From a virus, in the IMG/VR virus record IMGVR_UViG_3300025101_000012, positions 1 through 33,975 of that record: 33,975 nucleotides of DNA, one strand, 5' to 3'. The notes beneath the pieces were generated by a model. That model ran no database searches and was not told where the DNA came from. It saw nothing but the letters and a program-made list of their open reading frames with translations. Positions within the stretch are counted from its first letter, which is position 1; each line of letters starts with the position of its first letter. The translations under genes and the position numbers were made by a program. Shown one piece after another: positions 849-12,887 of the stretch.

Positions 849-882
849 TTTACATTGTACTAAATATAGTTATACAACTATA
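849..882 (+). promoter_or_regulatory. Candidate sigma70 promoter with inverted repeat over the -10
   Basis: TTTACA (849-854) and TATACA (871-876) are 16 bp apart. The -10 lies in a 7-bp inverted repeat, TATAGTT (865-871) / AACTATA (876-882), that could be an operator. Transcription would begin about 5 nt before the ATG at 888, which has no Shine-Dalgarno sequence, so that mRNA could be nearly leaderless. Confidence 0.45.
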
Positions 883-887
883 AGTAC

Positions 888-1196: not shown

Positions 1197-1657
1197 AACT
1201 GACTGAAAACTTTAACCTTCGAGAGCTTACAAAATCACAAGTCGCCGAGCGTAACGGGATTCCAAACAATCCATCTAGTGACCACATTGATGCATTAAAA
1301 AAACTTGCAGAGTCTGTACTTCAACCTTTGCGTAACCACTATGAAAGTCCAGTAATTATTACTTCAGGCTATCGTAGTGCAGAATTATGTATGGCTATTG
1401 GATCAAATGGATTGACATCACAACACGCAAAAGGTCAAGCAGCAGACCTTGAAATTATTGGCGTTTCCAATTATGATACTGCATTATGGATTAAAAATAA
1501 TCTTGACTTTGACCAGCTTATATTAGAGTTCTGGAAAGGTGAAGATGAACCTAATAGTGGGTGGATTCATGTGTCGTATGTCGGCAAGAAAAATAGAAAA
1601 CAAAGTCTCAGAGCATTTAGAGACGACAATGGAAAAGTAAATTATAAACCTTGGTAA
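1193..1657 (+). CDS. Peptidase M15A-type endolysin (D-Ala peptide hydrolase)
   Basis: 154 residues matching the peptidase M15A family (PF08291 type), zinc enzymes that cut D-Ala-containing cross-links in peptidoglycan. Visible features are NFNLRELTKS near the start, the SGYRS motif (58-62), the zinc motif SQHAKGQAADLE (His78, Asp85) and the third ligand in WIHVSY (His126). The length is usual for a single-domain member, and no signal peptide is present, so release would need a holin. It overlaps the upstream nuclease-like gene by ATGA and precedes a holin candidate by one base, which makes a lysis cassette. Confidence in the enzyme family is high. Confidence 0.9.
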   Translation: MKLTENFNLRELTKSQVAERNGIPNNPSSDHIDALKKLAESVLQPLRNHYESPVIITSGYRSAELCMAIGSNGLTSQHAKGQAADLEIIGVSNYDTALWIKNNLDFDQLILEFWKGEDEPNSGWIHVSYVGKKNRKQSLRAFRDDNGKVNYKPW

Positions 1658-1658
1658 T

Positions 1659-2036
1659 ATGTGGTTAAGTGCAATAAAATTAGCAGCTCAAGTTGGAAGC
1701 AAAGTATACGCTAACAGACAAAAAGCAAAGATGGCTATGTCTGAGGCACAATTATTACACGCTGAACGACAAGCTCGTGGCGAAGAAGCTTATCAAGGTA
1801 AATTATTAGAAGCTAGACAATCAGATTGGAAAGACGAATTTATTTTAATTTTGCTCTCAGTGCCAATCGTGATGCTAGGATTTGCAGTATGGTCAGACAA
1901 CCCTGCGCACATGGAAAAAATGCAGCTTTTCTTTGAGTATTTTTCAAACCTTCCCTTTTGGTATCAGTCCATTTTTGTGGGTGTCATCGCATCTGTCTAT
2001 GGACTGAAAGCCACTGATCTGATAAAGCGTAAGTAA
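1659..2036 (+). CDS. Putative holin (two to three membrane helices)
   Basis: 125 residues. The N-terminal 55 residues are helical and Ala/Gln/Glu-rich. Residues about 60-78 (EFILILLSVPIVMLGFAVW) and about 101-117 (WYQSIFVGVIASVYGLKAT) are membrane helices, followed by a basic tail (DLIKRK). This is close to the GTA_holin_3TM layout. Starting one base after the M15 endolysin stop, it would form the inner-membrane lesion that lets the enzyme reach the cell wall. The assignment rests on topology and position. Confidence 0.65.
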   Translation: MWLSAIKLAAQVGSKVYANRQKAKMAMSEAQLLHAERQARGEEAYQGKLLEARQSDWKDEFILILLSVPIVMLGFAVWSDNPAHMEKMQLFFEYFSNLPFWYQSIFVGVIASVYGLKATDLIKRK

Positions 2037-2182
2037 TGAGTAATCAAATTGCAAAAATGTTTAGCCAAACATTTGGTACAAAGGTTACGTTAAAATCGCA
2101 ACAAGGATTAGGCTATGGCACGAAAAGTAAAAGACTACGCACCTCTGGAAAGAAAAAGAAGAAAAAGACCAGGACGACATAG
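2036..2182 (+). CDS. Small basic protein, unknown
   Basis: 48 residues, starting on the last base of the holin stop (TAATG). The N-terminus is MSNQIAKMFSQTF and the end is very Lys/Arg-rich (GKKKKKKTRTT). Its last 68 bases overlap the next gene (from 2115) in another frame. Start-stop coupling supports translation, but the heavy overlap with a more recognisable gene lowers confidence. No function can be assigned. Confidence 0.5.
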   Translation: MSNQIAKMFSQTFGTKVTLKSQQGLGYGTKSKRLRTSGKKKKKKTRTT

Positions 2183-2246
2183 TAAGTCGCCTAATAAATC
2201 CTTTAAGTTACAACAAAAAAAATACAATAGACAAGGTAGAGTATGA
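2115..2246 (+). CDS. Small Arg/Lys-rich conserved phage protein
   Basis: 43 residues with the central block RKRRKRPGRHSKSPNKSFK. Very basic proteins with an RPGRHSKS-N-SFK block recur beside lysis and structural genes in small marine podoviruses; this is remembered, not searched. It could bind nucleic acid or be a minor virion protein. It overlaps the previous small gene by 68 nt in another frame and the following gene by ATGA at 2243-2246. Confidence 0.6.
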   Translation: MARKVKDYAPLERKRRKRPGRHSKSPNKSFKLQQKKYNRQGRV

Positions 2247-2446
2247 TTTGTAAAAAAATTATTTGTATGAAGAGATTAAAAAAAGCAATTTGTAGAGTGT
2301 TATTACCCATTGTAGCAAGATGGGAGAATAGAATGTGGAAAGTTTTATATCAAAGACCAAGACGATATTGCGAATGTGTGAGTGATAAAGAGTTTGCTTA
2401 TCATGTTAAAAACAATTTACCAAACAAGGATCAGTTTAATGATTAG
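2243..2446 (+). CDS. Hypothetical basic, Cys-containing protein
   Basis: 67 residues beginning at an ATGA overlap with the previous stop. The N-terminal third (MICKKIICMKRLKKAICRVL) is amphipathic, basic and Cys-rich and may associate with membranes. The rest has RRYCECVSDKEFAYHVKNN. Its stop lies 8 nt inside the next gene. Translational coupling is the main support. Function unknown. Confidence 0.5.
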   Translation: MICKKIICMKRLKKAICRVLLPIVARWENRMWKVLYQRPRRYCECVSDKEFAYHVKNNLPNKDQFND

Positions 2447-3035
2447 ATTTTTATTAGCATTTATGCTAGTATGTTCTTTTGCTTATGGAGATACTACTCA
2501 AAATAATACTTCTGGCTCAAACACTTCCATCACAGGTGGATACACAAACTCAAATACTTATGAGTCAGGATCAAGTAATTCTTCAAGCACTACAAACAAC
2601 AGCACCAGCAATATTAGATCAGCACCTCCTAGTGCTTATGCACCTGGTCTATCCAATTCAGGTAATGATGTCTGCTCCGTAGGAGCTAGTGCTGGAGTTC
2701 AAACTTTTGGATTAGGTATATCAGGTGGTAAAGGTTTCAGAGATGAAAATTGTGAAAGAATAAAATTATCAAGACAATTAGATTCTATGGGAATGAAAGT
2801 TGCAGCGGTTGCTTTACTTTGCCAAGATCCCCGTGTCTTTGAATCTATGATTATGGCGGGGACTCCATGTCCTTACAATGGTAAGATAGGTAAACAAGCA
2901 GATAAGTTATGGAAAAAATATAATAAACTTAGACCAGATTACAAACAGTATACTAAAAATTTAAAAATTAAGGAGAAGATAGATGAAAAACTTATTCCTC
3001 GTAATAATTCTATCTATACTGACCCAGACGAGTAA
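2439..3035 (+). CDS. Sec-exported Ser/Thr/Asn-rich protein with conserved Cys domain
   Basis: 198 residues from the ATG at 2439, chosen over the upstream start at 2382 because it yields a clean signal peptide (MIRFLLAFMLVCSFAYG). Residues about 18-70 are low-complexity Asn/Ser/Thr/Gly. Residues about 75-140 form a compact domain with four Cys (NDVCSVGAS, DENCERI, ALLCQDP, GTPCPYN) and GVQTFGLGISGGKGFRD, followed by a Lys/Tyr-rich end. The predicted location is the periplasm or envelope, where the Cys could pair. It is followed by a second exported protein with a 53-nt overlap, so the two are probably made together. I recall similar proteins in marine podoviruses without known function. Lysis, superinfection exclusion or virion decoration are all possible. 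Confidence 0.8.
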   Translation: MIRFLLAFMLVCSFAYGDTTQNNTSGSNTSITGGYTNSNTYESGSSNSSSTTNNSTSNIRSAPPSAYAPGLSNSGNDVCSVGASAGVQTFGLGISGGKGFRDENCERIKLSRQLDSMGMKVAAVALLCQDPRVFESMIMAGTPCPYNGKIGKQADKLWKKYNKLRPDYKQYTKNLKIKEKIDEKLIPRNNSIYTDPDE

Positions 3036-4377
3036 TGCTGAACAAGCAACCTCTGGTAATCTTTTACCTAACGCTGGTGTCGGTACAACATCAGTACAAA
3101 ACCAATCAGGGTCAATAGATGGTATCAATGGATCAAATGGTTGGACCACATCAGGCGTATCTAATTTTAATAATGAGCTAGAAGCACAAGGCACTGGAAC
3201 AATATCTGCAAATGGATCATTGTTAAATATTACAACTGAAAAAGAAAATGGTGGTCAGTTTACAACAACAACAAATAGTTTAGATGGTGGTGTTAGATTA
3301 GACTCAACAACAGAAGTACAAAGTTGTGAATGGATAGGATCGGCTCATCAATGTGGACAAGCAACCAATGGCAGAGATAGTTATTCTACGACTGTAAATA
3401 TCAAAGATGAAAATAATCAAGTCTTATCAAGTGTAACACAAAACAGAAACAATGATGCTGGATATTATGGCAATACATTTACTTATAATGATACTGTTAT
3501 TCATAATGGAACAGGTGCAAGAAATTGGGATTGGACTTGGACAGGTGTGGATGGAAACAATGTTAATGCAACAGGTGCAGTTGGACCAAACTTATTAGGT
3601 GCTGAACTTACAGCAACCCTTTTAGATATTGATTACTCACCAATTCCACCAGCAGTACAGACTGAACTTGTTAGTTTTAACAATGAAATAAGAGAAGAGT
3701 TTAAAAAATTAGAAGAAGTTATAAATTTAAAAGAAGAAGTTAAGTTAGAGAAAGTTGCTTCTATTCAAGAAGAACCAAAACTTACTGAACCAAAAATGGA
3801 AAAGTTTAAAGAACCTGTTAAAACTATGCCAGTTAAAAAAGAAGAAGAACCAAAACAATTTGTAACTCAGAACAAACAAATAACAAGTCAAAGTTCTTCA
3901 CCTGCACAAACCAAAACTTTAAAACAAGAAACATCTAAAGAAGAAAAGATGGTTAAAGAAATAGCAAAAGAAGAAAAAACAGAAAAAACAAAACAGGTAT
4001 CAAATAAATCAAGTAGTAACAGTAATGTTTCAAGTGAAAACAAACCCTCAGTATCTGTTGTTTTACAAAAAACTATGGATAAAATTGATGAACGAGTCAA
4101 AGATATAGGTAAAAATTTAAAAATTAAAAACCTATTTAAGATGAGAGCAATGGTTGATAATTCTTTATTAGATGTATATAATATCCCATTTTATGAAACA
4201 AAAAATATTTACAAAGATCAACCAAGTATTCAAGACAACAGAAGAATATACACAACAAGTTTGGAATCGTATCAAAGATCAGATCCGATATTTCAAATGC
4301 AACGTAATGTACAGAAAATGCGATTGCAAAGAGAAAGACTTACAAGAGAAATAGAAATGTTAAAAAATGGACAGTAA
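2983..4377 (+). CDS. Large Sec-exported protein: beta-rich head, charged coiled-coil stalk
   Basis: 464 residues with an AAGGAG Shine-Dalgarno 7 nt before the ATG and a signal peptide (MKNLFLVIILSILTQTSNA, cleavage before EQ). Residues about 24-220 are Gly/Asn/Thr-rich beta sequence with GNLLPNAGVGTT, WTTSGVSNFNN and two Cys (SCEW, HQCGQ). Residues about 225-380 are Glu/Lys-rich and likely extended or coiled. The tail (about 420-464) is helical with QMQRNVQKMRLQRERLTREI. The NLLPN...GW.TSG head resembles extracellular carbohydrate-binding or adhesin-like modules; this is a resemblance only. The start lies inside the previous exported-protein gene. The export signal and the size of the two-gene module are unusual for a small lytic phage. 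Confidence 0.85.
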   Translation: MKNLFLVIILSILTQTSNAEQATSGNLLPNAGVGTTSVQNQSGSIDGINGSNGWTTSGVSNFNNELEAQGTGTISANGSLLNITTEKENGGQFTTTTNSLDGGVRLDSTTEVQSCEWIGSAHQCGQATNGRDSYSTTVNIKDENNQVLSSVTQNRNNDAGYYGNTFTYNDTVIHNGTGARNWDWTWTGVDGNNVNATGAVGPNLLGAELTATLLDIDYSPIPPAVQTELVSFNNEIREEFKKLEEVINLKEEVKLEKVASIQEEPKLTEPKMEKFKEPVKTMPVKKEEEPKQFVTQNKQITSQSSSPAQTKTLKQETSKEEKMVKEIAKEEKTEKTKQVSNKSSSNSNVSSENKPSVSVVLQKTMDKIDERVKDIGKNLKIKNLFKMRAMVDNSLLDVYNIPFYETKNIYKDQPSIQDNRRIYTTSLESYQRSDPIFQMQRNVQKMRLQRERLTREIEMLKNGQ

Positions 4378-4513
4378 AGATTTTAAATATATAATAAACT
4401 TTAGAGACAAAGAAGCAAAAAAAATGGTTCAAACTGTTTATGCTTTTAAACAAAGACAAAGCAGACCAAGAGCAAAACAAAATATTATTAACCCCGACTT
4501 AAAAGGTATTTAA
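4367..4513 (+). CDS. Small basic hypothetical protein
   Basis: 48 residues overlapping the end of the exported-protein gene by 11 nt. It opens with MDSKDFKYIINFRDKEAKKM and continues with a Gln/Arg/Lys-rich helix (FKQRQSRPRAKQN), ending one base before the next ATG. Tight spacing on both sides supports expression. No motif is recognised. Confidence 0.55.
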   Translation: MDSKDFKYIINFRDKEAKKMVQTVYAFKQRQSRPRAKQNIINPDLKGI

Positions 4514-4514
4514 T

Positions 4515-4793
4515 ATGGTAAAAAAATTACAAGATAATCTTGCAGGGATTGCAGCACTTATTGGTGTTGTGGGTGCAATAGGTGCAGGATTTATTACTTA
4601 TGGTAAGATGCAAGAACAAATTAATTCTGTTGCTGGACTTGATTTAAATCCATTAATAAAAGAAATCTCTGCACAAAATATTAAAATTGAAAAACAAAAT
4701 AAAGCATTGGCTATTATGGGTAAAGAGATTCAAGTTCTACAATTAGAAATGAAAGAGTTTAAAGAATCAAACAAAAATCCTTTGTTAAATTAA
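4515..4793 (+). CDS. Membrane-anchored coiled-coil protein
   Basis: 92 residues. Residues about 9-30 (LAGIAALIGVVGAIGAGFITYG) form one Gly/Ala-rich membrane helix. The rest is an amphipathic helical stretch (IKEISAQNIKIEKQNKALAI, then QVLQLEMKEFKES) with coiled-coil spacing. The form fits a spanin-like or holin-accessory protein, or an envelope anchor for the exported proteins just upstream. There is no lipobox. Function unknown. Confidence 0.65.
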   Translation: MVKKLQDNLAGIAALIGVVGAIGAGFITYGKMQEQINSVAGLDLNPLIKEISAQNIKIEKQNKALAIMGKEIQVLQLEMKEFKESNKNPLLN

Positions 4794-4794
4794 A

Positions 4795-4971
4795 ATGATT
4801 GATGCACTTATTTTTATTGCATCCATCATATTGTTTTTAGATTATATGCAAAAATCATACGTCACTAAAGATCCTGAAGATCCTGAAACTAAAAAATGGA
4901 TTGAAGAAATAGAAGCAGACAAACGAAGAGAAAAGTTTTTTAATAATAAAAAAGATGGTGAGATAAAATAA
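4795..4971 (+). CDS. Small membrane protein with charged tail
   Basis: 58 residues. An N-terminal hydrophobic helix (MIDALIFIASIILFLDYMQ) precedes DPEDPETKKWIEEIEADKRR, a charged cytoplasmic-type tail. It starts one base after the preceding stop and its own stop overlaps the next ATG (TAATG at 4969-4973). With the gene before, it makes a pair of one-helix membrane proteins. No family recognised. Confidence 0.6.
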   Translation: MIDALIFIASIILFLDYMQKSYVTKDPEDPETKKWIEEIEADKRREKFFNNKKDGEIK

Positions 4972-5219
4972 TGGCAATCACATACCGAGGTGAAAAGTTT
5001 TCAGGTTACAACAAACCTAAGAACGCAAGAACCAAGACTAAAAAGTTTGCGGTTCTGGCAAAGGTAGGAAACAAGGTAAGACTTATTCGCTACGGGGATG
5101 CCAACATGACCATCAAAAAATCATCACCTGCAAGACGTAAATCCTTTAGAGCAAGACATCGCTGTGCAACTGCAACGAATAAATTGACTGCGAGATATTG
5201 GAGTTGTAAGAAGTGGTAG
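4971..5219 (+). CDS. DUF5754-like conserved phage protein
   Basis: 82 residues with a distinctive layout: YRGEKFSGYNKPK, then KTKKFAVLAKVGNKVRLIRY, GDANMTIKK, ARRKSFRARHRC and the ending KLTARYWSCKKW. This matches the DUF5754-type family shared by cyanophages, pelagiphages and larger marine viruses, usually beside structural genes. It is basic, with two Cys that could hold a metal. The role is unknown, perhaps virion-associated. It is the last gene before a strong terminator. Confidence 0.85.
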   Translation: MAITYRGEKFSGYNKPKNARTKTKKFAVLAKVGNKVRLIRYGDANMTIKKSSPARRKSFRARHRCATATNKLTARYWSCKKW

Positions 5220-5245
5220 GGTGACTTTCGCCACCCCACCTTTTT
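5215..5245 (+). terminator. Intrinsic terminator closing the late plus-strand block
   Basis: GGTAGGGTG (5215-5223) pairs with CACCCCACC (5232-5240) with one A-C mismatch and an 8-nt loop, followed by TTTTT (5241-5245). The left arm begins inside the stop codon of the preceding gene. It separates the late operon from the opposing minus-strand gene. Confidence 0.8.
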
Positions 5246-5257
5246 AGATCTATTTAT

Positions 5258-5449
5258 TTAAATCTTTTTTTTTAGTTGTTTAAAATATTGATTTTTAGAT
5301 TTACGAAGTGCTGTTTGTAAATGGTCATACATAAGTTTCCATTCTACTGATAAATTATCTTTTAATTTAAGATCAGCTAAATCTTCAAATTTACCATAAC
5401 TAGCCATCAACAATGCTTGTGTTTCTTTTTGTGTTAAGTTTATTTTCAT
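5258..5449 (-). CDS. Small helical protein, lone minus-strand gene
   Basis: 63 residues. The AAAGGA Shine-Dalgarno and the strong promoter at 5472-5500 support it. The sequence MKINLTQKETQALLMASYGKFEDLADLKLKD... is helical and ends with a basic LKKKI. No recognised domain. It is isolated between two plus-strand blocks with its own promoter, and its leader resembles those of the minus-strand accessory genes at 12.7-15.6 kb, which suggests co-regulation with them. Confidence 0.75.
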   Translation of the reverse strand: MKINLTQKETQALLMASYGKFEDLADLKLKDNLSVEWKLMYDHLQTALRKSKNQYFKQLKKKI

Positions 5450-5471
5450 TTCTATCCTTTCTGTTTTTTAC

Positions 5472-5500
5472 AGTATATCATATCTGTATATGCTTGTCAA
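5472..5500 (-). promoter_or_regulatory. Sigma70 promoter for the 5258-5449 gene
   Basis: Read on the minus strand, TTGACA (5500-5495) and TATACT (5477-5472) are separated by exactly 17 bp. The -10 is preceded by TGA, giving an extended -10 (TGATATACT). The start point would fall near 5465, before the AAAGGA ribosome site. This is the best consensus promoter in the window. Confidence 0.8.
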
Positions 5501-5533
5501 GTCTTTTTTTTTCTGGTAAATTATAAACAAACA

Positions 5534-5863
5534 ATGTTAAGAAGAAAAAAACAAATAAGAATACGTTTATATAATTGTGATTACTGCAATAAAGAACATG
5601 AAAATATTAATTGCGGAAATGATTATATTGTATATGCTAGTGGTCATAGATTTTGTAGAGAACCTGATTGCTGGTCTCTTTACATTCAACAACAAAAAAA
5701 GAAAGATGAGGAAAGAAATGTACGGAATGAAGAAAAAAGGAAAAGGGTCTATGGGAAAAGGATCTTCAATGAAAAAGAAAAAGAAGAAAGGCAAAAAGTA
5801 ATCTCTAAGTTAGATCAATATTTAGATTACTTGAAAGGAAATCATGCCAAAGAAAAAAGGTAA
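5534..5863 (+). CDS. Zinc-finger-like small protein
   Basis: 109 residues. The N-terminal third has CDYC (residues 15-18), then NCG, then FCREPDCW. These spaced Cys could bind zinc in a ribbon-type fold. The remaining 60 residues form a strongly charged helix (Lys/Glu/Arg). It starts just after the divergent promoter region and the last codons overlap the next small gene. It may bind nucleic acid or be a regulator. No family match is recalled. Confidence 0.65.
   Translation: MLRRKKQIRIRLYNCDYCNKEHENINCGNDYIVYASGHRFCREPDCWSLYIQQQKKKDEERNVRNEEKRKRVYGKRIFNEKEKEERQKVISKLDQYLDYLKGNHAKEKR
5718..5801 (+). CDS. Possible tiny Lys/Gly-rich protein inside another gene
   Basis: 27 residues in a different frame within 5534-5863, with a GAGGAAAG ribosome site just before the ATG. 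The product is MYGMKKKGKGSMGKGSSM followed by a Lys-rich end. Tiny Lys/Gly/Met-rich proteins are typical of this part of marine podovirus genomes. The host frame is also A-rich, so the open frame could be chance. Confidence 0.35.
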   Translation: MYGMKKKGKGSMGKGSSMKKKKKKGKK

Positions 5864-5963
5864 AAAAAAATATACTGCAAAACAAATGAAGATAGCTCGT
5901 GTTGCAGAACCTAGAAATAGGATTACAGGAGCTGACTTTAAAAAATTAAGAAAGAAAAAATGA
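5844..5963 (+). CDS. Tiny basic conserved phage protein
   Basis: 39 residues with a GAAAGGAAATC ribosome site. The motif IARVAEPRNRITGADFKKLR is one I recognise as recurrent in small marine phage proteins of unknown function. Both ends are Lys-rich. Its stop overlaps the next ATG (AATGA at 5960-5963), giving a coupled chain of tiny genes. Confidence 0.7.
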   Translation: MPKKKGKKKYTAKQMKIARVAEPRNRITGADFKKLRKKK

Positions 5964-6103
5964 CAACTAAATCAATTAAAGCACCCAAAGGTTTTCATTG
6001 GATGAAAAAGGGTTCGTCTTATAAACTTATGAAAGGTGAATATAAGCCACACAGAGGAGCTGTGAGAATGGCAAAATTTACAGTACAAAAAAGACATGGC
6101 TAA
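5960..6103 (+). CDS. Tiny basic conserved phage protein (GFHWMKKGSSYKLMKG type)
   Basis: 47 residues beginning at an ATGA overlap. The layout PKGFHWMKKG...YKLMKG...PHRGAVRMAKFTVQKRHG matches a small conserved protein found in cyanophages and pelagiphages. It is basic and probably a single small beta fold. Function unknown. Its end overlaps the next gene by 8 nt. Confidence 0.7.
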   Translation: MTTKSIKAPKGFHWMKKGSSYKLMKGEYKPHRGAVRMAKFTVQKRHG

Positions 6104-6230
6104 ACTTTGTGCAAAAGGTAAAGCTGCTGCTAAAAGAAAATTCAAAGTCTATCCCAGTGCCTATGCAAATATGTATGCTGCTGGGGTATGTAGTGGTAGA
6201 ATAAAACCAAAACGTAAAAAGAAAAAATAA
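6096..6230 (+). CDS. Small conserved phage protein (KRKFKVYPSAYAN type)
   Basis: 44 residues: LCAKGKAAAKRKFKVYPSAY, then ANMYAAGVCSGRIKPK and a Lys-rich end. The KFKVYPSAYANMYA..VC.G signature is widely shared among marine phages and large DNA viruses as a short basic protein of unknown role. Two Cys flank the conserved core. The stop overlaps the next ATG (TAATG). Confidence 0.75.
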   Translation: MAKLCAKGKAAAKRKFKVYPSAYANMYAAGVCSGRIKPKRKKKK

Positions 6231-6475
6231 TGTCTAAAGGTTTACGATCATGGGTGAGAGCCAACTGGGTAGATATTGCTAACCCAAAAAAAGGTGGTGG
6301 TTTTCCCAAGTGTGGTCGTAGTGGTGGTGAGAAAAGAAGAAACTATCCTAAGTGTGTACCTTTATCAAAAGCCAGAGCCATGTCTCCAAGTCAAAGAGCT
6401 GCTGCAGTACGAAGAAAGAAAACAGCAGAGAGAAAAACACGCAGGGGTAAAAAACCTAATTACGCAAGAACATAG
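6230..6475 (+). CDS. DUF5872-like conserved basic protein
   Basis: 81 residues with GLRSWVRANWVDIANPKKGG, then PKCGRSGGEKRRNYPKCVPL, SKARAMSPSQRAAAVRRKK and a basic end. This is the DUF5872-type layout: KG...W....W.DI..PK.GGG...CGR......YPKCVP..KA..M. It usually lies beside the preceding KVYPSAYAN gene, as here, so the two probably work together. The paired Cys may bind a metal. Role unknown; nucleic-acid or virion binding is plausible given the charge. Confidence 0.85.
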   Translation: MSKGLRSWVRANWVDIANPKKGGGFPKCGRSGGEKRRNYPKCVPLSKARAMSPSQRAAAVRRKKTAERKTRRGKKPNYART

Positions 6476-6478
6476 TAA

Positions 6479-6712
6479 ATGAAATCATTTTTTTTATTTG
6501 CAATGATTTGTTTTGCTGATCCTGAAGCACCACGTGGTATTAGCTGTATGGATTTTAAAGAAAATGATGATAAAATTTATAACTCTCCCAAGGCTTGTTA
6601 TGATGCAGCAAATAAAGTGGGTGATGAAATTAAAATACAATTTACCACTAACGAAATTAAAATATTAGAGTTAATTATTTGGTGTGTAAATACTAAAGGT
6701 GAGATTGTTTAG
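6479..6712 (+). CDS. Small probably exported Cys protein
   Basis: 77 residues. The N-terminus MKSFFLFAMICFADPEAPRG reads as a short signal peptide cleaved near FA-DP. The mature part has three Cys (SCMDF, KACYDA, WCVNT) and would be periplasmic. It ends at 6710-6712 and overlaps the stop codon of the convergent minus-strand DnaA-like gene. It is the third exported-protein candidate of this genome. Confidence 0.65.
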   Translation: MKSFFLFAMICFADPEAPRGISCMDFKENDDKIYNSPKACYDAANKVGDEIKIQFTTNEIKILELIIWCVNTKGEIV

Positions 6713-7254
6713 AAAGATTTAAGTTCTATCTCTAAATCTTTGTATAACTTTTCATAATGTTGCCAAGTAATATTGTGAACATCCCAAAATCTTTTATGGT
6801 CAAACTTCATTCTTAAATGATGTAGGATTGTGGTGTGGTCTCTACCTCCAAGTATTCTACCAATCTCAGGTAAAGATAAAGGTGTCAGTTCTCTGATTAA
6901 ATTAATAATTACAGATCTAACTTCAGCGTATTCTCTCAAACGTCTAGGTGAAATAATCTCTTCATGGGTTCGGTTATAATGACGAAGCACTTTGTTATAA
7001 ATATAATCGGCTTGTCTGTTTGCAGTTTTGTAAACACTGGTTCTGGTATGTTGGTTAGGTGTCTTACCTTTAGCGACATAAATAAATTTTGTAATTGTTT
7101 TTGATTTGATGGTGTGTTCTTGACCTAGTTTATATCCCGTCATAAATGCGGACTGATGAATGTTTCGTTCTCGTTCATTCAAGTTTTCATAAGCAGATAT
7201 ATTTATTTTATAATTATATTCGTCTAATAAATTTTGATTTATATTTTGAGACAT
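6709..7254 (-). CDS. DnaA domain IV-like protein (replication initiator mimic)
   Basis: 181 residues from the ATG at 7254, chosen for the AAGGG ribosome site; an in-frame ATG at 7275 is possible. The C-terminal part (about 98-150) matches the DNA-binding domain IV of DnaA: a SPRRLREYAEVRSVIINLI helix, SLPEIGRILGGRDHTTILHH with the signature GGRDHTT at 136-142. The AAA+ ATPase domain is absent; the N-terminal 95 residues are unrecognised. It should bind DnaA boxes and could mark the phage origin for the host replisome or repress promoters. It ends the leftward operon and its stop overlaps the convergent plus-strand gene. Confidence 0.8.
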   Translation of the reverse strand: MSQNINQNLLDEYNYKINISAYENLNERERNIHQSAFMTGYKLGQEHTIKSKTITKFIYVAKGKTPNQHTRTSVYKTANRQADYIYNKVLRHYNRTHEEIISPRRLREYAEVRSVIINLIRELTPLSLPEIGRILGGRDHTTILHHLRMKFDHKRFWDVHNITWQHYEKLYKDLEIELKSF

Positions 7255-7298
7255 AGAACCCTTCTCTGTTTGCACAGCTTTTAGTTGTTTTATATATG

Positions 7299-7318
7299 CT
7301 TACCAGTTATGCGGTAAG
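7299..7318. repeat. Short perfect inverted repeat (possible operator or hairpin)
   Basis: CTTACC (7299-7304) and GGTAAG (7313-7318) flank 8 bases. It lies between the DnaA-like gene and the end of the 7307-7465 gene. There is no U-tract on either side, so it is not a classic terminator. Confidence 0.35.
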
Positions 7319-7465
7319 TTCTTCTTGAACTCTTTGAACTTTGAAAGTAAGTTGTTTCGCTTCATCAAGATACTTTCTAGCTTTCGCTTGATAAACAAGA
7401 CCCATCTCATATTTTTTTTGTTCCTTGTCTCTCAGCTTCTGGAGTTCCTTTTTGACTTTCGTCAT
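7307..7465 (-). CDS. Small Lys/Gln-rich helical protein
   Basis: 52 residues with a near-ideal ribosome site (AAGGAG, 5 nt spacer, ATG). The sequence MTKVKKELQKLRDKEQKKYE then GLVYQAKARKYLDEAKQLTF and VQRVQEELTA is all-helical and coiled-coil-like. It overlaps the preceding gene's 3' end by 59 nt in another frame. No family recognised. The ribosome site makes it more convincing than its length suggests. Confidence 0.65.
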   Translation of the reverse strand: MTKVKKELQKLRDKEQKKYEMGLVYQAKARKYLDEAKQLTFKVQRVQEELTA

Positions 7466-7625
7466 CTTCTCTCCTTACTGTTGTAAAGTCAATCTTTACT
7501 TCATTGACTTTTACTTCTACTGATAAAGGATTTTTATTATCAGCAGCATTCTCTACGGAAATGAATTTTTGTTCTCTAACAAAATTACAAACTCCGCTAT
7601 CTCTTTTTATATATGATTTTGACAT
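7407..7625 (-). CDS. Hypothetical protein in the leftward operon
   Basis: 72 residues with an AGAGG site 9-10 nt before the ATG. MSKSYIKRDSGVCNFVREQK opens a beta-type N-terminal region; the last 20 residues, charged and Gly/Glu-rich, overlap the strongly initiated 7307-7465 gene. It starts 5 nt after the DUF6378-like gene. No domain recognised. Confidence 0.55.
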   Translation of the reverse strand: MSKSYIKRDSGVCNFVREQKFISVENAADNKNPLSVEVKVNEVKIDFTTVRREDDESQKGTPEAERQGTKKI

Positions 7626-7630
7626 ATTGT

Positions 7631-7906
7631 CTAGTCCTCTTTATGTAAATCTTTTGCCATGTCTAAATAAATACTTGCATCTAAATAAGTGTCAGCTTTG
7701 TAAGCTCGTGTTGTTCTTAACATTTTTAACATCACCATCATGTTCGCTGCTTCGTAAGGTTTGACATCTGATTTTAATTTATCTTTTAATATAACGGACC
7801 AGAGAAAAGCAATCAATCCCATATTCTCTTTATAATCCCCATACTCTTTATCTTTTTGATCTCGGAGTTTCTTCTTAATTTCTTTTTCTAAATCTATTGT
7901 GTTCAT
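7631..7906 (-). CDS. DUF6378-like phage protein
   Basis: 91 residues: KEYGDYKENMGLIAFLWSVI, then VKPYEAANMMVMLKMLRTTR and DTYLDASIYLDMAKD. This is the all-helical DUF6378 layout (YG.....N...IA..WS..L....V...M.MLK..R.....D...D...Y). The family is common in phages and may relate to nucleotide pyrophosphohydrolases; this is not proven. The ATG has no Shine-Dalgarno sequence and lies 11 nt after a highly structured RNA element, so its translation may depend on that structure. Confidence 0.75.
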   Translation of the reverse strand: MNTIDLEKEIKKKLRDQKDKEYGDYKENMGLIAFLWSVILKDKLKSDVKPYEAANMMVMLKMLRTTRAYKADTYLDASIYLDMAKDLHKED

Positions 7907-7917
7907 ATTGTTTTAGC

Positions 7918-8003
7918 GAAACAGGCAAGAGCAAAACAACTTCGAAAGGTTTAGTCTGAAAGGAACGGCTTGTAAGCCATGACTAAAATCTCTCGCCTGT
8001 TTC
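7918..8003 (-). ncRNA. Structured RNA or regulatory element in the replication operon
   Basis: Three nested stems are visible. The outer 14-bp stem is 7918-7931 with 7990-8003, the middle 7-bp stem is TTTAGTC (7950-7956) with GACTAAA (7981-7987), and the apical stem is GGCTT (7967-7971) with AAGCC (7974-7978). The single imperfect pair of the outer stem is G-U in the minus-strand RNA but A-C in the plus-strand RNA, which argues that the minus strand is the functional RNA, as in the surrounding operon. The unpaired regions are asymmetric (18 and 2 nt, then 10 and 2 nt), unlike a plain terminator, and no U-tract follows. It could be a leader controlling the DUF6378-like gene, a processed small RNA or a replication site. 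No known riboswitch is recognised. Confidence 0.7.
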
Positions 8004-8004
8004 A

Positions 8005-8040
8005 TTATAGATATTTATATCACTAGATTAATATCTATAA
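8005..8040. repeat. 11-bp perfect inverted repeat at the end of the SSB-like gene
   Basis: TTATAGATATT (8005-8015) and AATATCTATAA (8030-8040) flank a 14-nt AT-rich loop. The right arm includes the last codons and part of the stop codon of the SSB-like gene. It lies next to the larger structured element and has no U-tract. It may protect or process the mRNA 3' end. Confidence 0.6.
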
Positions 8041-8363
8041 TTTCCCTTACCAAAGTTTCCTCTCTTTTGAAAGTTGTTATTTCCAAAAGACTTTTGTTGG
8101 TAATTAGGTCTGGTATTACCCGCAGCTTTACTACCACCTTCATTCGGTGTGAGTATAACCACAATTCCACCATTAGCTTCACCTGTCTCCATATCTGAAG
8201 ACTCAAAAGCCGCTTGGTTGTACCACGTTTCCCCGATACGAGTTCCCAGTGTCCAGTTTTTATCAGGATACTTGGGGTTCTTTGGTGCAACAAAAGCTGG
8301 AAGGTTATCTCCTGCTTGTTTGTTTGGATTAGGCATAAGATTTATATATATTTTATCTGCCAT
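8028..8363 (-). CDS. Small SSB-like protein (putative)
   Basis: 111 residues with an ideal AAGGAG ribosome site. Residues 1-75 are beta-type (KIYINLMPNPNKQ, WTLGTRIGETWYNQAAF, NGGIVVILTPNEG). Residues about 76-111 are a disordered Gly/Asn/Gln tail ending in an aromatic-basic stretch (FGNNNFQKRGNFGKGNYRY). A compact beta domain with a flexible Gly-rich tail, placed between a nuclease/annealing pair and replication genes, fits a small single-strand DNA-binding or DUF736-like protein. The acidic tip typical of bacterial SSB is absent. The assignment is by shape and context. Confidence 0.6.
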   Translation of the reverse strand: MADKIYINLMPNPNKQAGDNLPAFVAPKNPKYPDKNWTLGTRIGETWYNQAAFESSDMETGEANGGIVVILTPNEGGSKAAGNTRPNYQQKSFGNNNFQKRGNFGKGNYRY

Positions 8364-8371
8364 GTTTCTCC

Positions 8372-8998
8372 TTAGTTGTTATGAACAGGTGTATTTGTAA
8401 AATTATTTTCCTGTTCTAATTGGAACTCACGTGTCTCTATAACATCTGTAATCTCTTTATAAAGTCGTGGTTCATTTTTAAGAAGATAGTCAATCGTATC
8501 TTTATATACGACATCCTTTAGATATTTTAGTCTAGGAAGATGGATTGCTTTTTTAAAACTATCCTTGACATCTTCAACATCCACATCATCATTAAGCTGT
8601 GATGTGTCTTTGGACTCCTTACGAATATCTAAACCTAACTCATCATATTCTTCTTTGCTGGTTAGGTCGTCATCCAATATCCCTAAGTACGTCAAAGCTC
8701 TGCAAAAACTAAAGCTGGTTGCTAAATCAAAGTAACCAGGTTTGTCTCTATATTGTTTTGAAAAACCCTCACTGACAATAAACTCTGGATCTTTGGTACT
8801 GATAATACATTTCATAATCAAAGCACGATCAGAATGTTCCATGAGTTTGAACTGCACACCATAGTCTGATCCAAAGACTTGTCTAAAGTATTTAATTTTT
8901 GACCACGCAGATACTGTATGCTGACCATTTTTGTTTACATACATTCCATCATCTCTGCATAAAGCCATCACTTGTTTTATTTTATCTCTCATTTTCAA
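8372..8998 (-). CDS. Probable single-strand annealing protein (ERF/Rad52-like)
   Basis: 208 residues. The core GSDYGVQFKLME, then MKCIISTKDPEFIVSEGFSK, followed by FDLATSFSFCRALTYLGILD and DDLTSKEEYDEL, has the pattern of phage recombinases of the ERF/Sak type. In these a beta sheet is followed by an A..A..RAL..LGI helix and a short S.EE motif. The C-terminus is acidic and helical. Such proteins anneal single strands during recombination-dependent replication. The RecB/Cas4-like nuclease upstream in the same operon is the expected partner, as with lambda exo/bet. The family call is from pattern reading. Confidence 0.55.
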   Translation of the reverse strand: MKMRDKIKQVMALCRDDGMYVNKNGQHTVSAWSKIKYFRQVFGSDYGVQFKLMEHSDRALIMKCIISTKDPEFIVSEGFSKQYRDKPGYFDLATSFSFCRALTYLGILDDDLTSKEEYDELGLDIRKESKDTSQLNDDVDVEDVKDSFKKAIHLPRLKYLKDVVYKDTIDYLLKNEPRLYKEITDVIETREFQLEQENNFTNTPVHNN

Positions 8999-9215
8999 CT
9001 ACTCCTTTCTCTTGTAGTATTGTTAATGCTTTTTCTCCTACTGTTACTCTTTGGTTTTCTAACACGACCAAGATAGTGACAAAGGTTGCTAACATCAGAC
9101 CCATTAAAGTCCAGTTCACTATTCTAAAAAACTTTGTCAGTTTAGTTTGTCTTATTAGTTCATGTTTTAATTCAAACACATCTACGCTGTGTTCATCCTT
9201 TCTTCTCTGGTGCAT
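8982..9215 (-). CDS. Single-pass membrane protein between nuclease and annealing genes
   Basis: 77 residues from the ATG at 9215, picked because of the strong AAGGAGG ribosome site immediately before it. The frame extends upstream to 9311, but those starts lack such a site. The N-terminal 30 residues are charged (MHQRRKDEHSVDVFELKHEL). One membrane helix spans about 34-52 (VNWTLMGLMLATFVTILVVL). It overlaps the annealing-protein gene by 17 nt. It might tether replication proteins to the membrane or inhibit a host function. Unknown. Confidence 0.65.
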   Translation of the reverse strand: MHQRRKDEHSVDVFELKHELIRQTKLTKFFRIVNWTLMGLMLATFVTILVVLENQRVTVGEKALTILQEKGVVENER

Positions 9216-9298
9216 AACCCTCCTTATGGTTCGTTCATCCATGTTGTTTTGGAGTGGAGAACATAGAACGTAAACAAAAAAGGATATATAAAAACACC

Positions 9299-10183
9299 CT
9301 ACATCCTCCACACTTTTTTTATTTCTTCTAACTGGCTCGGAGTAATGTCCGAGTAATAGAAGCTTTTGAAGTCAGGTGGTTCAACCAACTGGCTAATTTT
9401 ATTCATATCTGCTTCTGTTATTTCTAACAGATTTTGTATAATGAATGCTTTGTTAATCATCTGATCGTAATAATATTTTAGTTCAGGTATTTCTGGTTTA
9501 AATATTCTATATTCATCTGCGTTTACATACACAAGATAAGGTGTCTTTTGTGTACACTGCCAATAGAATGCTAATTGTTTTAAGTGTGCTTCATCTGGTT
9601 CGTCTGGCAACTTTTGTTTGTAACATGATAAACCATTTTTTGTCTGTCTAAAATTAGGCGGTTTCGTTTTAAGTTCCATGATAATATTTTCACTTTCATA
9701 ATCTATTCTGCCAAGAATATCCAAGACCAAACCTTTGGGTGTGTCATAAACATATCGTTCTGCCACAAGCTCTTGTTTACTGAAAATTTCTTTAACTGCT
9801 TTTACAATTTGATTTGCTGTAGGTTCTATGTGTTGCTTCATTTCTTTTCTACATCGTGCATCTCGTTCATCTCTTGGCTCTATTTTATCTATAATTTCAA
9901 TCTCTCTTATTATATTATCTTTTAGTTTTTTTGATGATGGTGTTATCTTTTTACCTGCATCAAAAATATATTTACATAAATGTCTTTGTACTGGATTGTT
10001 ACACGCATTACCAAAGTGTGCTTTGTAACCTGATAACTGCAATCGTCTTTGTTCTTGAGTAAACATAAGATAGTTAATAAAAAATTTTGGCAAAGGAATA
10101 CCCAGAGATGATGGAGATAAATGATCGTAACCCAATCCACCATTCATGGCTTGTCGTATCTTGTTTGCTAATGCTTCATTCAT
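9299..10183 (-). CDS. RecB/Cas4-type PD-(D/E)XK exonuclease
   Basis: 294 residues. The N-terminus has LSPSSLG, usual for the PDDEXK_1 (Cas4/RecB C-terminal) group. The active-site block is GRIDYESENIIMELKTK (Asp161, Glu170, Lys172), with the RecB-family QLAFY motif at 203-207. It likely resects double-stranded DNA ends to feed the annealing protein encoded downstream. It is the first gene of the leftward operon and starts at the divergent control region. Length and motif order agree with phage-encoded members. Confidence 0.8.
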   Translation of the reverse strand: MNEALANKIRQAMNGGLGYDHLSPSSLGIPLPKFFINYLMFTQEQRRLQLSGYKAHFGNACNNPVQRHLCKYIFDAGKKITPSSKKLKDNIIREIEIIDKIEPRDERDARCRKEMKQHIEPTANQIVKAVKEIFSKQELVAERYVYDTPKGLVLDILGRIDYESENIIMELKTKPPNFRQTKNGLSCYKQKLPDEPDEAHLKQLAFYWQCTQKTPYLVYVNADEYRIFKPEIPELKYYYDQMINKAFIIQNLLEITEADMNKISQLVEPPDFKSFYYSDITPSQLEEIKKVWRM

Positions 10184-10199
10184 AGTTGTTTTCCCACAG

Positions 10200-10228
10200 T
10201 GTATAATTTAATTAATGCTTGAAGTCAA
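10200..10228 (-). promoter_or_regulatory. Leftward sigma70-like promoter of the replication operon
   Basis: On the minus strand, TTGACT (10228-10223) and TATACA (10205-10200) are 17 bp apart. It points into the nuclease gene, with its start near 10193. The -10 lies inside a DnaA-box-like sequence, so the DnaA-like product of this operon could repress it. Confidence 0.7.
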
Positions 10229-10247
10229 TACTATTTTGATATATATC
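10219..10247 (+). promoter_or_regulatory. Weak candidate rightward promoter for the Cro-like gene
   Basis: TTGAAG (10219-10224) and TATATC (10242-10247) are 17 bp apart. The -10 is inside the 16-bp palindrome, as expected if the palindrome is an autoregulatory operator. The match to consensus is modest, and TATACA at 10255-10260 is an alternative -10. Confidence 0.35.
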
Positions 10248-10277
10248 AAATAATTATACACAACTAAAGGAATAATA

Positions 10278-10526
10278 ATGACGTTAGAACAATACAGAAA
10301 AGAGATAGCCAAAAAATCATATTATCGTTTTGGTCAAGAAGATCTTGGTATGAGAACTTTAAACCCAGGTTGTATGACCCAACGATGGTGTTTAACAGGT
10401 GATCCTAAATACTGGACTTTGCCTAGTAGTAACATGATGATTAAGATTGAAGAGATCACCAAGGGTAAAGTTAAAATTCAAGATCTAGTCAGAGAACACG
10501 CAAGAAAGAAAGGTGATAATGTTTAA
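10278..10526 (+). CDS. Cro/YdaS-like small DNA-binding regulator
   Basis: 82 residues with a CTAAAGGAATAATA ribosome site. The C-terminal half, MMIKIEEITKGKVKIQDLVREH, matches the end of Cro/YdaS-type HTH proteins (kIeeiT.GkV...dL). The first half has MTLEQYRKEIAKK and MTQRWCLTGDPKYW, where the recognition helix is expected but diverged. It lies just right of a perfect 16-bp palindrome and faces the leftward operon, as Cro does in lambdoid phages. No partner CI-type repressor or integrase is present, so it probably times early gene expression and not lysogeny. Confidence 0.6.
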   Translation: MTLEQYRKEIAKKSYYRFGQEDLGMRTLNPGCMTQRWCLTGDPKYWTLPSSNMMIKIEEITKGKVKIQDLVREHARKKGDNV

Positions 10527-10779
10527 TGAAAGATTTAACCCGACTCCAGTTATTATTGAATGGTTTGACATCAACGCTACAGACGGGGGTTGGCACAGCG
10601 AAGAGGATATTAAAAAACATGAACCCGCAAAATGTATTGACTTGTGTTTTATCTATAGTGAAAGCGATGATCGTGTTATTACTTACTCTTCTTATAACTT
10701 GCACGATGATGGTGCAGTGGAGTATGGATTTATTACAGCAATTCCTACAGGGTGCATACGAAAAATTACAAAACTATGA
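10519..10779 (+). CDS. Conserved small phage protein, unknown function
   Basis: 86 residues from the ATG at 10519, selected because AAAGG lies 5 nt upstream; a GTG at 10513 is in frame. The sequence has VIIEWFDINATDGGWHSEED, then CIDLCFIYSESDDRVITYSS and AIPTGCIRKITKL. The pattern W.D...D.GW, a central strand with Y..E, and IP.GCI..I at the end is frequent in phage genomes as a single small beta protein of unknown role. It overlaps the Cro-like gene by 8 nt and the next gene by ATGA. Confidence 0.75.
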   Translation: MFNERFNPTPVIIEWFDINATDGGWHSEEDIKKHEPAKCIDLCFIYSESDDRVITYSSYNLHDDGAVEYGFITAIPTGCIRKITKL

Positions 10780-11003
10780 CTGATGATAGAGGAGAACTAG
10801 ATTTGACAAGACAGATTGATGATCTAAGTATTCAGCTAGAACAATATAATAAAACATTAGAGATTATGAATGAAGAGAATGCTAACTTAAAAGTTATCAT
10901 ATCACAATTACAAGAAGAAAAATTAGAATTACAAAAAGAAATCCATGATCTCCAATACCAAAGGAACATAAGAGACTATGCGATACGCAAAACATTTTCA
11001 TAA
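10776..11003 (+). CDS. Coiled-coil protein
   Basis: 75 residues from the ATG at 10776, which overlaps the previous stop (ATGA). The chain is almost entirely a heptad-type helix (LTRQIDDLSIQLEQYNKTLE, EENANLKVIISQLQEEKLEL). It is predicted to be a coiled-coil oligomer with no catalytic residues. It overlaps the following gene by 26 nt. Role unknown. Confidence 0.65.
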   Translation: MTDDRGELDLTRQIDDLSIQLEQYNKTLEIMNEENANLKVIISQLQEEKLELQKEIHDLQYQRNIRDYAIRKTFS

Positions 11004-11361
11004 AGATTTATATTCTAAACGACATCGAGACTTTGATGGTATTGCAATGATTGATTTGGATTCACTTGAAGTGTGTTTAAATAAAGGATGTTGGAAACCT
11101 TTAGCGTGTGTTGAGACTGTCTATGATACGGGTAATTATGTTAAGTATACCACTGTCACAGAACACGTTGCCAATGGCTTAAATATACCTGCTTTTTTAG
11201 TGTTCTATCAAAAAGGGTTAGGCAGTAGCCTATTTTATAAAATCAGGCAAGTAGCACCCTTTAAAAGCCGTTTAAGGAGTGTTTCTGAGTATGTTTGGAT
11301 ATCTTATTTGCGTAAATTACAAAGACAGCATCAACCCTACTGTAAACATGGCAAAAGGTAG
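10978..11361 (+). CDS. Hypothetical protein with possible nuclease-like core
   Basis: 127 residues. The central part, GIAMIDLDSLEVCLNKGCWK then PLACVETVYD and NIPAFLVFYQKG, resembles a group of phage proteins with (D-x-D)...C..(K/E)PLA..E....A...IPA..V.Y. These are sometimes modelled as restriction-endonuclease-like, but no clear E-x-K is visible. The C-terminus is basic (RLRSVSEYVWISYLRKLQRQ). Function not assigned. It precedes the winged-helix gene by 8 nt. Confidence 0.65.
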   Translation: MRYAKHFHKDLYSKRHRDFDGIAMIDLDSLEVCLNKGCWKPLACVETVYDTGNYVKYTTVTEHVANGLNIPAFLVFYQKGLGSSLFYKIRQVAPFKSRLRSVSEYVWISYLRKLQRQHQPYCKHGKR

Positions 11362-11369
11362 TCAAGATT

Positions 11370-12026
11370 GTGGCGAATAGATCGTTCTTACTTACAACAT
11401 ATAAGCTGTATCATCATTTGGATAAAGTATCAGGTTCGGCAAAGGCAAACTGTCTATCGGTGTATATGTCTATAATGAAATATGCATGGAGAAAAAATAA
11501 TTATGAGTGTGGGTTGCGACACAGCACAATCGCCAAGGACACGGGACTATCTCGTTCCACCATACATAGATCTTTGTTGACCCTTGCCAAGCTTAATATA
11601 CTTAAAATGTATAAGGGTAGATCTGGAAAAACATATTGTATAAATGCTAAGTTTTTAGTGCCTGAAAAGACTGGTATGTATAAATCTGACACATCTATGT
11701 ATAAAATAGACACAAACTATGTGTCAAATATACAGACATTAGAAGAACAATATATTACATTATACAATATACTAAAATCAGATAGAGATTTGTCTTATAA
11801 GATAGATGCTTTAAGCGTACTCCCCCTTGCTGACTTACAAGCTAATTTAAAATACAATCCTTATTATATTAAGAAAGCTATCGCTTTGAAAAAGGAGAAT
11901 GATAAACCCAAAGTGGAATTGAATACGGGTGCGGTGTTGAAAAAACTAGCCAAGGAAAAGAACCCCCAGTATCATATTAAGAAGCAATATAATATTCGTA
12001 ACAATATCAAACCATGGGAGAAGTAA
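11370..12026 (+). CDS. Winged-helix (HTH_36-like) protein, possible replication initiator or regulator
   Basis: 218 residues beginning with GTG at 11370; no upstream ATG keeps the frame intact. Residues about 20-105 have the helix_turn_helix_36 pattern: ANCLSVYMSIMKYAWRKNN, then ECGLRHSTIAKDTGLSRSTI (recognition helix) and LLTLAKLNILKMYKGRSGKT. The C-terminal half is helical and Lys-rich. Such domains occur at the N-terminus of phage replication initiators (often partnered with DnaC-type loaders) and in regulators. As no polymerase or helicase is encoded, it may help recruit host replication. The GTG start is plausible but not certain. Confidence 0.65.
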   Translation: MANRSFLLTTYKLYHHLDKVSGSAKANCLSVYMSIMKYAWRKNNYECGLRHSTIAKDTGLSRSTIHRSLLTLAKLNILKMYKGRSGKTYCINAKFLVPEKTGMYKSDTSMYKIDTNYVSNIQTLEEQYITLYNILKSDRDLSYKIDALSVLPLADLQANLKYNPYYIKKAIALKKENDKPKVELNTGAVLKKLAKEKNPQYHIKKQYNIRNNIKPWEK

Positions 12027-12030
12027 CAAC

Positions 12031-12423
12031 GTGGTCGCAAAGCCAATGCAGAAAATTCTGTGCCAAGGAAAGTCTAGGCAGACAGGTAAACCTTGTGGGT
12101 GTAAAGGGTATAGAACAGCGACAGGATTATATCTTTGTAAGTATCATGGTGGACAAAACAGATTTGCATTTAACAAACATAACTATTCTGATATAGCACG
12201 TATACGAAAATTAAAGGGACTTAAACAATTTCAAAAGTTTACTGATGATGAACTCGAAAAATATTACAAAGAAAAAGTCAAACCAAGAATTGATAACAAT
12301 CAACCAAGCCGATACTATTTGCGAGAGACTAACAGACGGACTGACTTTAGTAGAGATTTTAGAGGACAAGCAGTATCCGTTCAGCTTGATGAAGTTTTAC
12401 GCATACTTAAAAAAAAATCCTGA
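12031..12423 (+). CDS. Small conserved protein with CxC...CKYHGG metal-binding motif
   Basis: 130 residues from GTG 12031 (ATG at 12046 is an alternative). The N-terminus has CQGKSRQTGKPCGCKGYRTA, then TGLYLCKYHGG. Spaced Cys and His suggest a zinc site of the HGG-type small protein often found upstream of terminases. The rest is helical and charged. Its last 179 bases overlap the small terminase gene in another frame, which is long for this genome. Function unknown; the position links it to DNA packaging. Confidence 0.65.
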   Translation: MVAKPMQKILCQGKSRQTGKPCGCKGYRTATGLYLCKYHGGQNRFAFNKHNYSDIARIRKLKGLKQFQKFTDDELEKYYKEKVKPRIDNNQPSRYYLRETNRRTDFSRDFRGQAVSVQLDEVLRILKKKS

Positions 12424-12715: not shown

Positions 12716-12716
12716 T

Positions 12717-12887
12717 TTATTTTAAAATTCCCTTTCTTTCTTCTACATATATTTTTATTTCATCAAATAAAGCATTCAAACAAAAGTCTCCTATGTTCAA
12801 ACTATTTAAAATGTGAATTTTCCCTTGTGGGTCTTTGATATTAATTTTAAGACTTTCCCACTCCCATTCATTTTTTTTATCTTCCAT
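12717..12887 (-). CDS. Small hypothetical protein at the end of the accessory operon
   Basis: 56 residues, MEDKKNEWEWESLKINIKDP then QGKIHILNSLNIGDFCLNAL, ending near the TerS stop. An AGAGG site lies 7 nt before the ATG. Start and previous stop share one base. It looks like a small beta-plus-helix protein, with no family recognised. Confidence 0.6.
   Translation of the reverse strand: MEDKKNEWEWESLKINIKDPQGKIHILNSLNIGDFCLNALFDEIKIYVEERKGILK

Follow-up and report, generated by a model that had tools for sequence, protein, structure and literature searches.

What would a phage with no visible replication enzymes of its own do with the DNA-binding domain of the bacterial initiator DnaA, detached from its ATPase? 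This question is raised by a small gene in the viral genome analyzed here (IMG/VR record IMGVR_UViG_3300025101_000012; the whole stretch of 33,975 nucleotides is hereafter called the window). A previous sequence-only reading had placed at 6709–7254 a 181-residue protein that keeps the DnaA signature GGRDHTT and has no ATPase domain. The open reading frame (ORF) is real, with an ATG start and 181 residues, but its strand had to be corrected to minus (7254 to 6709); the plus strand of the same interval is crowded with stops. The gene product, DnaA-C, is laid out as follows:

6709..7254, minus strand: DnaA-C, a free-standing DnaA domain IV protein of 181 amino acids (ORF, Pfam, alignment and predicted fold)
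DnaA-C layout: amino acids 1–65, phage-specific helical part; 66–93, connector and first helix; 80–176, domain IV

The signature is found at residues 136–142 of DnaA-C, and the Pfam family Bac_DnaA_C (PF08299) matched residues 83–148 with an E value of 1.2e-19 and 70.5 bits, against a cut-off of 31.5. The remaining Pfam matches up to an E value of 1 were two, both to weakly scoring helix-turn-helix (HTH) families; no AAA+ family was among them, in agreement with the earlier description of a protein lacking the ATPase. When compared with the NCBIfam DnaA model TIGR00362, DnaA-C scored 64.1 bits (cut-off, 343.9) and covered only profile positions 344–414 of 437, and the AAA+ ATPase domain III of chromosomal DnaA is not part of the protein. 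A first structure prediction, made from 8 alignment rows, gave a mean pLDDT of 75.5, and a second, alignment-based AlphaFold2 model with 73 rows gave 82.3, with residues 1–4 and 53–62 below 50. The second model matched 1j1v, the structure of E. coli DnaA domain IV with a DnaA box, over 94 residues (model residues 80–176) at a Z score of 14.9 and an rmsd of 1.6 Å. Together, the Pfam and fold matches identify a free-standing domain IV, which is complete in the model, HTH included. The alignment with Aquifex DnaA (1l8q; Z score 13.1) begins at model residue 67, which places residues 66–95 in the DnaA fold and leaves approximately residues 1–65 alone as unlike DnaA; the 95 N-terminal residues initially set apart from DnaA were therefore the wrong span.

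In the model, residues 1–65 form a short helix, a longer helix at 27–53, in which F37 and G40 are near-invariant across the family alignment, and a linker predicted with low confidence. When a profile of this N-terminus was run against our first set of related loci, it found 106 ORFs, each of them a DnaA-C protein, so that it is not a domain common to other proteins in that set. Residues 1–65 gave no sequence match to DnaA domain I in Pfam or NCBIfam, no partner was recognized for the N-terminus, and no fold was recognized for it in a structure comparison that barely probed this part (non-DnaA rows had Z scores of at most 5.8).

The genome is that of an HTVC010P-type pelagiphage, a virus of the most common bacteria in the ocean, from a group for which the family name Ubiqueviridae has been proposed. 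Nucleotide matching of window positions 1–20000 returned 21 records, every one a Pelagibacter phage, with 77–80% DNA identity in the terminase and portal genes; the conserved terminase, portal and capsid genes and the early gene order likewise place the window in this type. Bases 1–99 are identical to the last 99 bases, which fits a complete genome assembled as a circle. Among 41 window ORFs scanned with Pfam, no polymerase, helicase or primase was visible, consistent with the dependence on the host replisome that had been suggested; neither an integrase nor a helicase loader was matched among the scanned ORFs, a set that left out some small ORFs and the open-ended ORF 31735–33975. Passages of PMC10504331 describe HTVC010P-type phages as among the most abundant marine viruses and the phage Skadi-1 as lacking DNA and RNA polymerases and using those of its host; they state a helicase loader for Skadi-1 (gene unnamed) and the absence of helicase and primase genes, and they offer only guesses as to how such phages replicate without polymerase, helicase and primase.

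DnaA-C is the last gene of a leftward early operon, in which a nuclease, an annealing protein, an unknown protein, a DUF6378 protein and small genes precede it:

9299..10183, minus strand: nuclease, first gene of the leftward operon (name from relatives' annotation)
8372..8998, minus strand: putative single-strand-annealing protein (name from relatives' annotation)
7631..7906, minus strand: DUF6378 protein of the leftward operon

This order is also annotated in HTVC203P, Skadi-1, HTVC204P, HTVC100P, Greip, HTVC035P, HTVC024P and HTVC034P, and it is alike in HTVC010P and Lederberg, where most gene names are missing. A TBLASTN search with DnaA-C matched 54 phage records, 19 of them at a coverage of at least 80%, all Pelagibacter phages (several being strains of one species). 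The window's protein belongs to one family with those of the isolates (HTVC203P gp22, HTVC010P AGE60316.1, Skadi-1_28, Greip gp42 and Lederberg_50), with homology over both the N-terminus and domain IV and a shared position at the end of the operon; the isolates' proteins have the same N-terminal motif and are 26–31% identical to the window's over most of their length. Other viral DnaA-C proteins, such as the BFVD entries named "Chromosomal replication initiator, DnaA C-terminal" and the Cellulophaga phage DnaA, are short and alike in the domain, but differ from the window's in their N-termini and phage type. Among the viral predicted structures in BFVD, 284 matched DnaA-C at E ≤10 and 6 at E ≤0.001.

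The gene itself is already known in this virus family. It has been deposited as "DNA replication initiation (DnaA)," "chromosomal replication initiation protein DnaA-like protein" and "Bac_DnaA_C domain-containing protein"; one study reports it for all of its HTVC010P-related genomes, and the earlier literature on the gene includes Chen et al. In Bacillus phage Pony, a "DnaA-like replication initiator" has been named in a passage of PMC3853050. No functional test of a phage DnaA-C was among the matches listed in literature searches.

The operon that ends with DnaA-C also holds a covarying RNA element, located on the minus strand at 7907–8027, between ORFs 8028–8363 and 7631–7906, and in the same gap in relatives. 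It consists of a 12-bp stem that encloses U-rich and CCUUUC stretches and whose arms are wholly different from one phage to another. In 24 of the 46 distinct gap sequences, compensatory changes were observed in 10 of the 12 pairs; 89.9% of cells pair, compared to 70.4% in shuffles, and the covariation score was 0.66, compared to 0.28 in shuffles and 0.39 for the best slid version. No Rfam match was found for the element in the window or in three related loci (L025, L027 and L093).

DnaA-C is not the sole initiator candidate in this genome without a visible polymerase, helicase or primase, since the rightward early operon encodes an O-like protein:

11370..12026, plus strand: lambda-O-like initiator candidate (HTH, PHROG and family conservation)
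11675–11734, plus strand: 22-bp direct repeats in 2.8 copies, candidate origin iterons, inside the O-like gene

Homologues of ORF 11370–12026 in isolates are annotated as "putative transcriptional regulator." Its N-terminal (winged) HTH matched HTH_36 at 26.8 bits (Pfam cut-off, 25), and it matched PHROG replication-initiation families, one of them O-like, with E values of 6.1e-06, 4.7e-05 and 1.2e-04. Across its family, the N- and C-termini are conserved and the middle is variable. Relatives' O-like genes have 21–22-bp repeats at the same place, with units of other sequence: among 21 distinct genes, 19 had their best repeat site at nucleotides 290–430 of the open frame; in another set, anchored on O, 51 of 67 genes had it at 280–440, and 55 of 67 showed a lag of 21 or 22. 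When control lags of 26–32 were used, 25 of the 67 genes had their best site in the same mid-gene span. Because only 19 of the 67 genes reached significance individually (no more than 2 of 100 shuffles), 48 did not, and the genes are related, the case for iterons rests on position and period together. No tandem array with a period of at least 12 was present in 8 of 23 O-like genes, and in two loci (L027 and L032) the best repeat site lay outside the usual mid-gene position. Like lambda O and its origin, for which a passage of PMC3985674 gives four 19-bp iterons, the gene combines an N-terminal HTH, in-gene repeats, a variable middle and a conserved C-terminus; it differs in its 21–22-bp spacing, in its fewer recognizable copies and in having no recognized P-like neighbor. 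No model of a P-type helicase loader matched the scanned neighboring ORFs, several of which are small unknown proteins. From these features, ORF 11370–12026 probably encodes a replication initiator of the O type and contains the origin repeats within its own sequence. No pelagiphage paper was among the best matches of a literature search for pelagiphages with iterons or noncoding RNA.

We also analyzed how often the O-like gene and DnaA-C occur together. Where an O-anchored locus extended 6.5 kb or more upstream, both were present (all 17 loci); of the nuclease-anchored loci reaching 4 kb or more downstream, 24 of 25 had both, and so did all 27 O-bearing loci of the first set, which had been chosen by DnaA-C. 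The two anchored sets were the 80 nearest matches each, counted where the flank sufficed, and thus cover near relatives only, and the counts in related loci are not independent. In HTVC028P (L242/L243), an integrase-bearing phage of the HTVC010P type, neither DnaA-C nor the O-like gene was found at E ≤10, and the nuclease, DUF6378 and the homologue of ORF 10978 are kept; this is a single genome, which may carry a diverged O. Three loci are incomplete in other ways: L274 has the nuclease and no DnaA-C within 7.6 kb; L250 lacks O, the ORF-10978 homologue and DnaA-C, with only 1.4 kb after the nuclease; and L314 has DnaA-C without O on a contig that ends in the ORF-10978 homologue, so that O may lie beyond it.

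We then turned to the DNA that DnaA-C might bind. In the window, the consensus DnaA box TTWTNCACA was found 4 times against 7.1 expected, with at least as many in 91 of 100 shuffles, and TTATCCACA with one mismatch was found 13 times against 12.4 expected. The best 300-bp cluster of boxes was no better than in shuffles in any of 8 sequences, and no cluster was found near the iterons of the O-like gene. Three whole genomes together hold 12 boxes against 22.8 expected; this apparent depletion is nothing special, as 17.6% of 1386 permuted motifs were equally low. A search of three genomes for a phage-specific repeated target word among 9- and 11-mers gave nothing conspicuous. In the host, exact TTATCCACA was counted 11, 8, 12 and 6 times in four SAR11 genomes, compared to 20, 14, 12 and 13 for the reversed control, and no evident cluster indicated oriC.

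The recognition residues also bear on the question of the target. We take R399, R407, L422, P423, D433, H434, T435 and T436 of E. coli DnaA to be its DnaA-box contact residues. The counterparts of all eight are kept in the window's DnaA-C, and likewise in SAR11 DnaA from nine genomes; bacterial DnaA (1j1v, 3pvp and the SAR11 proteins) thus has the full domain IV fold and these presumed contacts in common with DnaA-C, and differs in possessing the AAA+ domain and domain I, of which DnaA-C lacks the former and has no recognized version of the latter. Across the 73-row family alignment, D433, H434, T436 and R407 are invariant, and the R399 position is R in 63 rows and K in 10. Conversely, P423 is kept in only 10 of the 73 rows, T418 in 22 and R432 in 22, the replacements being mostly T/S, Y and Q, respectively, whereas SAR11 DnaA keeps P, T and R at these positions in 9 of 9 genomes. 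If the protein were selected solely to occupy host oriC, it should retain these residues, as the hosts do; judged from the alignment, the altered positions in most relatives are more easily reconciled with the phage's own sites than with an unchanging host oriC. A recent acquisition of DnaA-C from the host is ruled out by its identity with SAR11 DnaA domain IV, 27 of 69 residues (39%); SAR11 and E. coli DnaA are 52–58% identical. No free-standing copy was found among 10 SAR11 genomes, nine of which gave one match each, in a frame of 472–499 amino acids, and one of which gave none.

Candidate sites of the phage's own lie at two places, the divergent early region and the leader of the DnaA-C gene:

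10199..10206, minus strand: left arm, TTATACAC(T), which is TTATACACT, 8/9 to TTATNCACA; candidate site
10254..10262, plus strand: right arm, TTATACACA, an exact TTATNCACA, 16 bases ahead of ORF 10278, the first rightward one
10200..10228, minus strand: apparent sigma-70-like promoter of the leftward operon, TTGACT-N17-TATACA (pattern match)
7266..7277, minus strand: CTGTGCAAACAG, candidate autoregulatory site, just upstream of the DnaA-C Shine-Dalgarno

The 34-kb window holds exactly two copies of the 8-mer TTATACAC, and both lie, inverted relative to each other, in the 94-bp intergenic region that separates the leftward operon, from the nuclease to DnaA-C, from the rightward operon with the O-like gene. 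When this region was shuffled under a dinucleotide model, both arms appeared in 0 of 5000 shuffles and one arm in 77 of 5000, for a pair that was noticed post hoc. Among 89 distinct sequences upstream of the nuclease, five retain the inverted pair, one of them being the window's own; in two loci with the pair (L248 and L249) no DnaA-C was seen, the L249 contig stopping within the nuclease. At this place TTATACAC is absent from L014 and L016, both of the window clade, and L036 has one copy; outside the clade, few sequences have it, with one copy each, and the pair therefore cannot explain the gene across the whole family. TATACA lies within each arm, so that promoter hexamers could account for part of the pair, and what looks like the –10 hexamer of the leftward promoter, TATACA, overlaps the left arm. 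A promoter scan, which requires the second hexamer to end in T and hence does not list TTGACT-N17-TATACA, gave one site in the region against 1.3 expected and did not single it out. Between the two arms also lies a perfect palindrome, TTGATATATATCAA (10235–10248), which by eye is operator-like.

In front of the DnaA-C gene itself, CTGTGCAAACAG is an inverted repeat, CTGT-GCAA-ACAG, which as RNA would have a GNRA-type loop; its opposite strand, GTTTGCACA, is one mismatch from TTWTNCACA. It was found ahead of DnaA-C in 17 of 17 window-clade loci (9 distinct upstream sequences, with proteins 53–99% identical to the window's; the cut locus L015 was skipped) and in 0 of 89 other loci. This site and the host-type residues at P423, T418 and R432 set the window clade apart from the isolates. 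Alternatively, the hairpin could work in translation, as an RNA element, and not as a site on the DNA.

Together, these results suggest, with a probability of roughly 0.4, that DnaA-C is an early regulator acting at the phage's own divergent promoters and tied to an O/iteron origin. What is shown is the domain with its fold and without an ATPase, the conserved operon, the co-occurrence with the O-like gene, the in-gene repeats, and both the inverted pair and the conserved leader site. DnaA-C would be a DNA-binding early protein, with DnaA domain IV behind a short phage-specific helical N-terminus, and may act as a DnaA that is able to bind and unable to unwind. It would bind the inverted pair TTATACACA/TTATACACT in the divergent region and the box-like site that precedes the DnaA-C gene, and would thereby set the transcription of both early operons, one of which carries the O-like gene and its repeats. 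These in-gene repeats probably form the origin, at which the O-like protein would start replication and the host replisome would carry it out; DnaA-C may be linked to origin firing, and its N-terminus may dimerize or contact a partner. There is a precedent in lambda, where, according to a passage of PMC3985674, host DnaA acts at an early promoter and in the ori region. A fuller version, about which we are more doubtful, has this very abundant phage family use an ATPase-less DnaA to regulate its early switch and lambda-like origin: DnaA-C would read box-like operators in place of, or against, host DnaA, while the O-like protein on in-gene iterons starts replication, and the protein and its sites would covary between clades.

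The altered recognition residues, the candidate sites and the co-occurrence with the O-like gene lead us to prefer regulation of the phage's early promoters to a blockade of oriC in the host. In the latter, DnaA-C would be a dominant-negative DnaA: sitting on the oriC boxes of the host and on promoters under DnaA control, it would prevent further rounds of host replication and release DnaB, polymerase III and nucleotides for use by the phage. Such a role, which we consider unlikely, would suit the window's protein, with its host-type recognition residues and no ATPase domain, and a phage whose genome is not enriched in DnaA boxes and whose origin is apparently of the O/iteron type, so that host DnaA would be dispensable. 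It is at odds with the loss of P423, R432 and T418 in most of the family while SAR11 retains them, and its presumed target was not found, exact TTATCCACA showing neither excess nor a cluster in the four SAR11 genomes.

About equally unlikely is a loader or co-initiator that sits near the iterons and hands over host DnaB or another part of the replisome through its N-terminus, replacing lambda P. The co-occurrence with the O-like gene and the joint absence in HTVC028P point in this direction, as do the want of a recognized helicase loader among the scanned ORFs and the conserved N-terminal helix, with its near-invariant F37 and G40 and a profile confined to DnaA-C in all 106 ORFs. Against it, there is no cluster of boxes near the iterons, the N-terminus has neither a recognized fold nor a sequence match to domain I, the gene sits in a recombination operon and not beside O, and Skadi-1 is stated, in a passage of PMC10504331, to have a helicase loader (gene unnamed). 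The deposited annotation as a replication initiator would accord with a DnaA-type phage origin, marked by DnaA-C for host DnaA, as had also been proposed from the sequence. That proposal is weakened, and is now very improbable: boxes are neither enriched nor clustered, which argues against an origin of this type, and the phage has a separate O-like initiator candidate with repeats in its own gene.

Regulation of the early promoters by DnaA-C is thus the reading that we carry forward, and what is new is that candidate sites at these promoters and a separate, probably lambda-like origin make the protein's job testable. In place of the earlier guess on replication there are now three things to test, namely the probable O-type initiator with its origin, the candidate DnaA-C sites named above and the covarying RNA element. 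Many phages have free-standing DnaA-C genes, so a function tested in this one would be relevant to a large class that is still unassigned. Farther along the window, at 13108–14183, we also observed a 35-nt repeat around CTTTCCTTTCTGTTGTTTA that is present four times, in each case before a small leftward ORF, with spacings of 435, 271 and 335; these are possibly common ribosome-binding or leader sequences.
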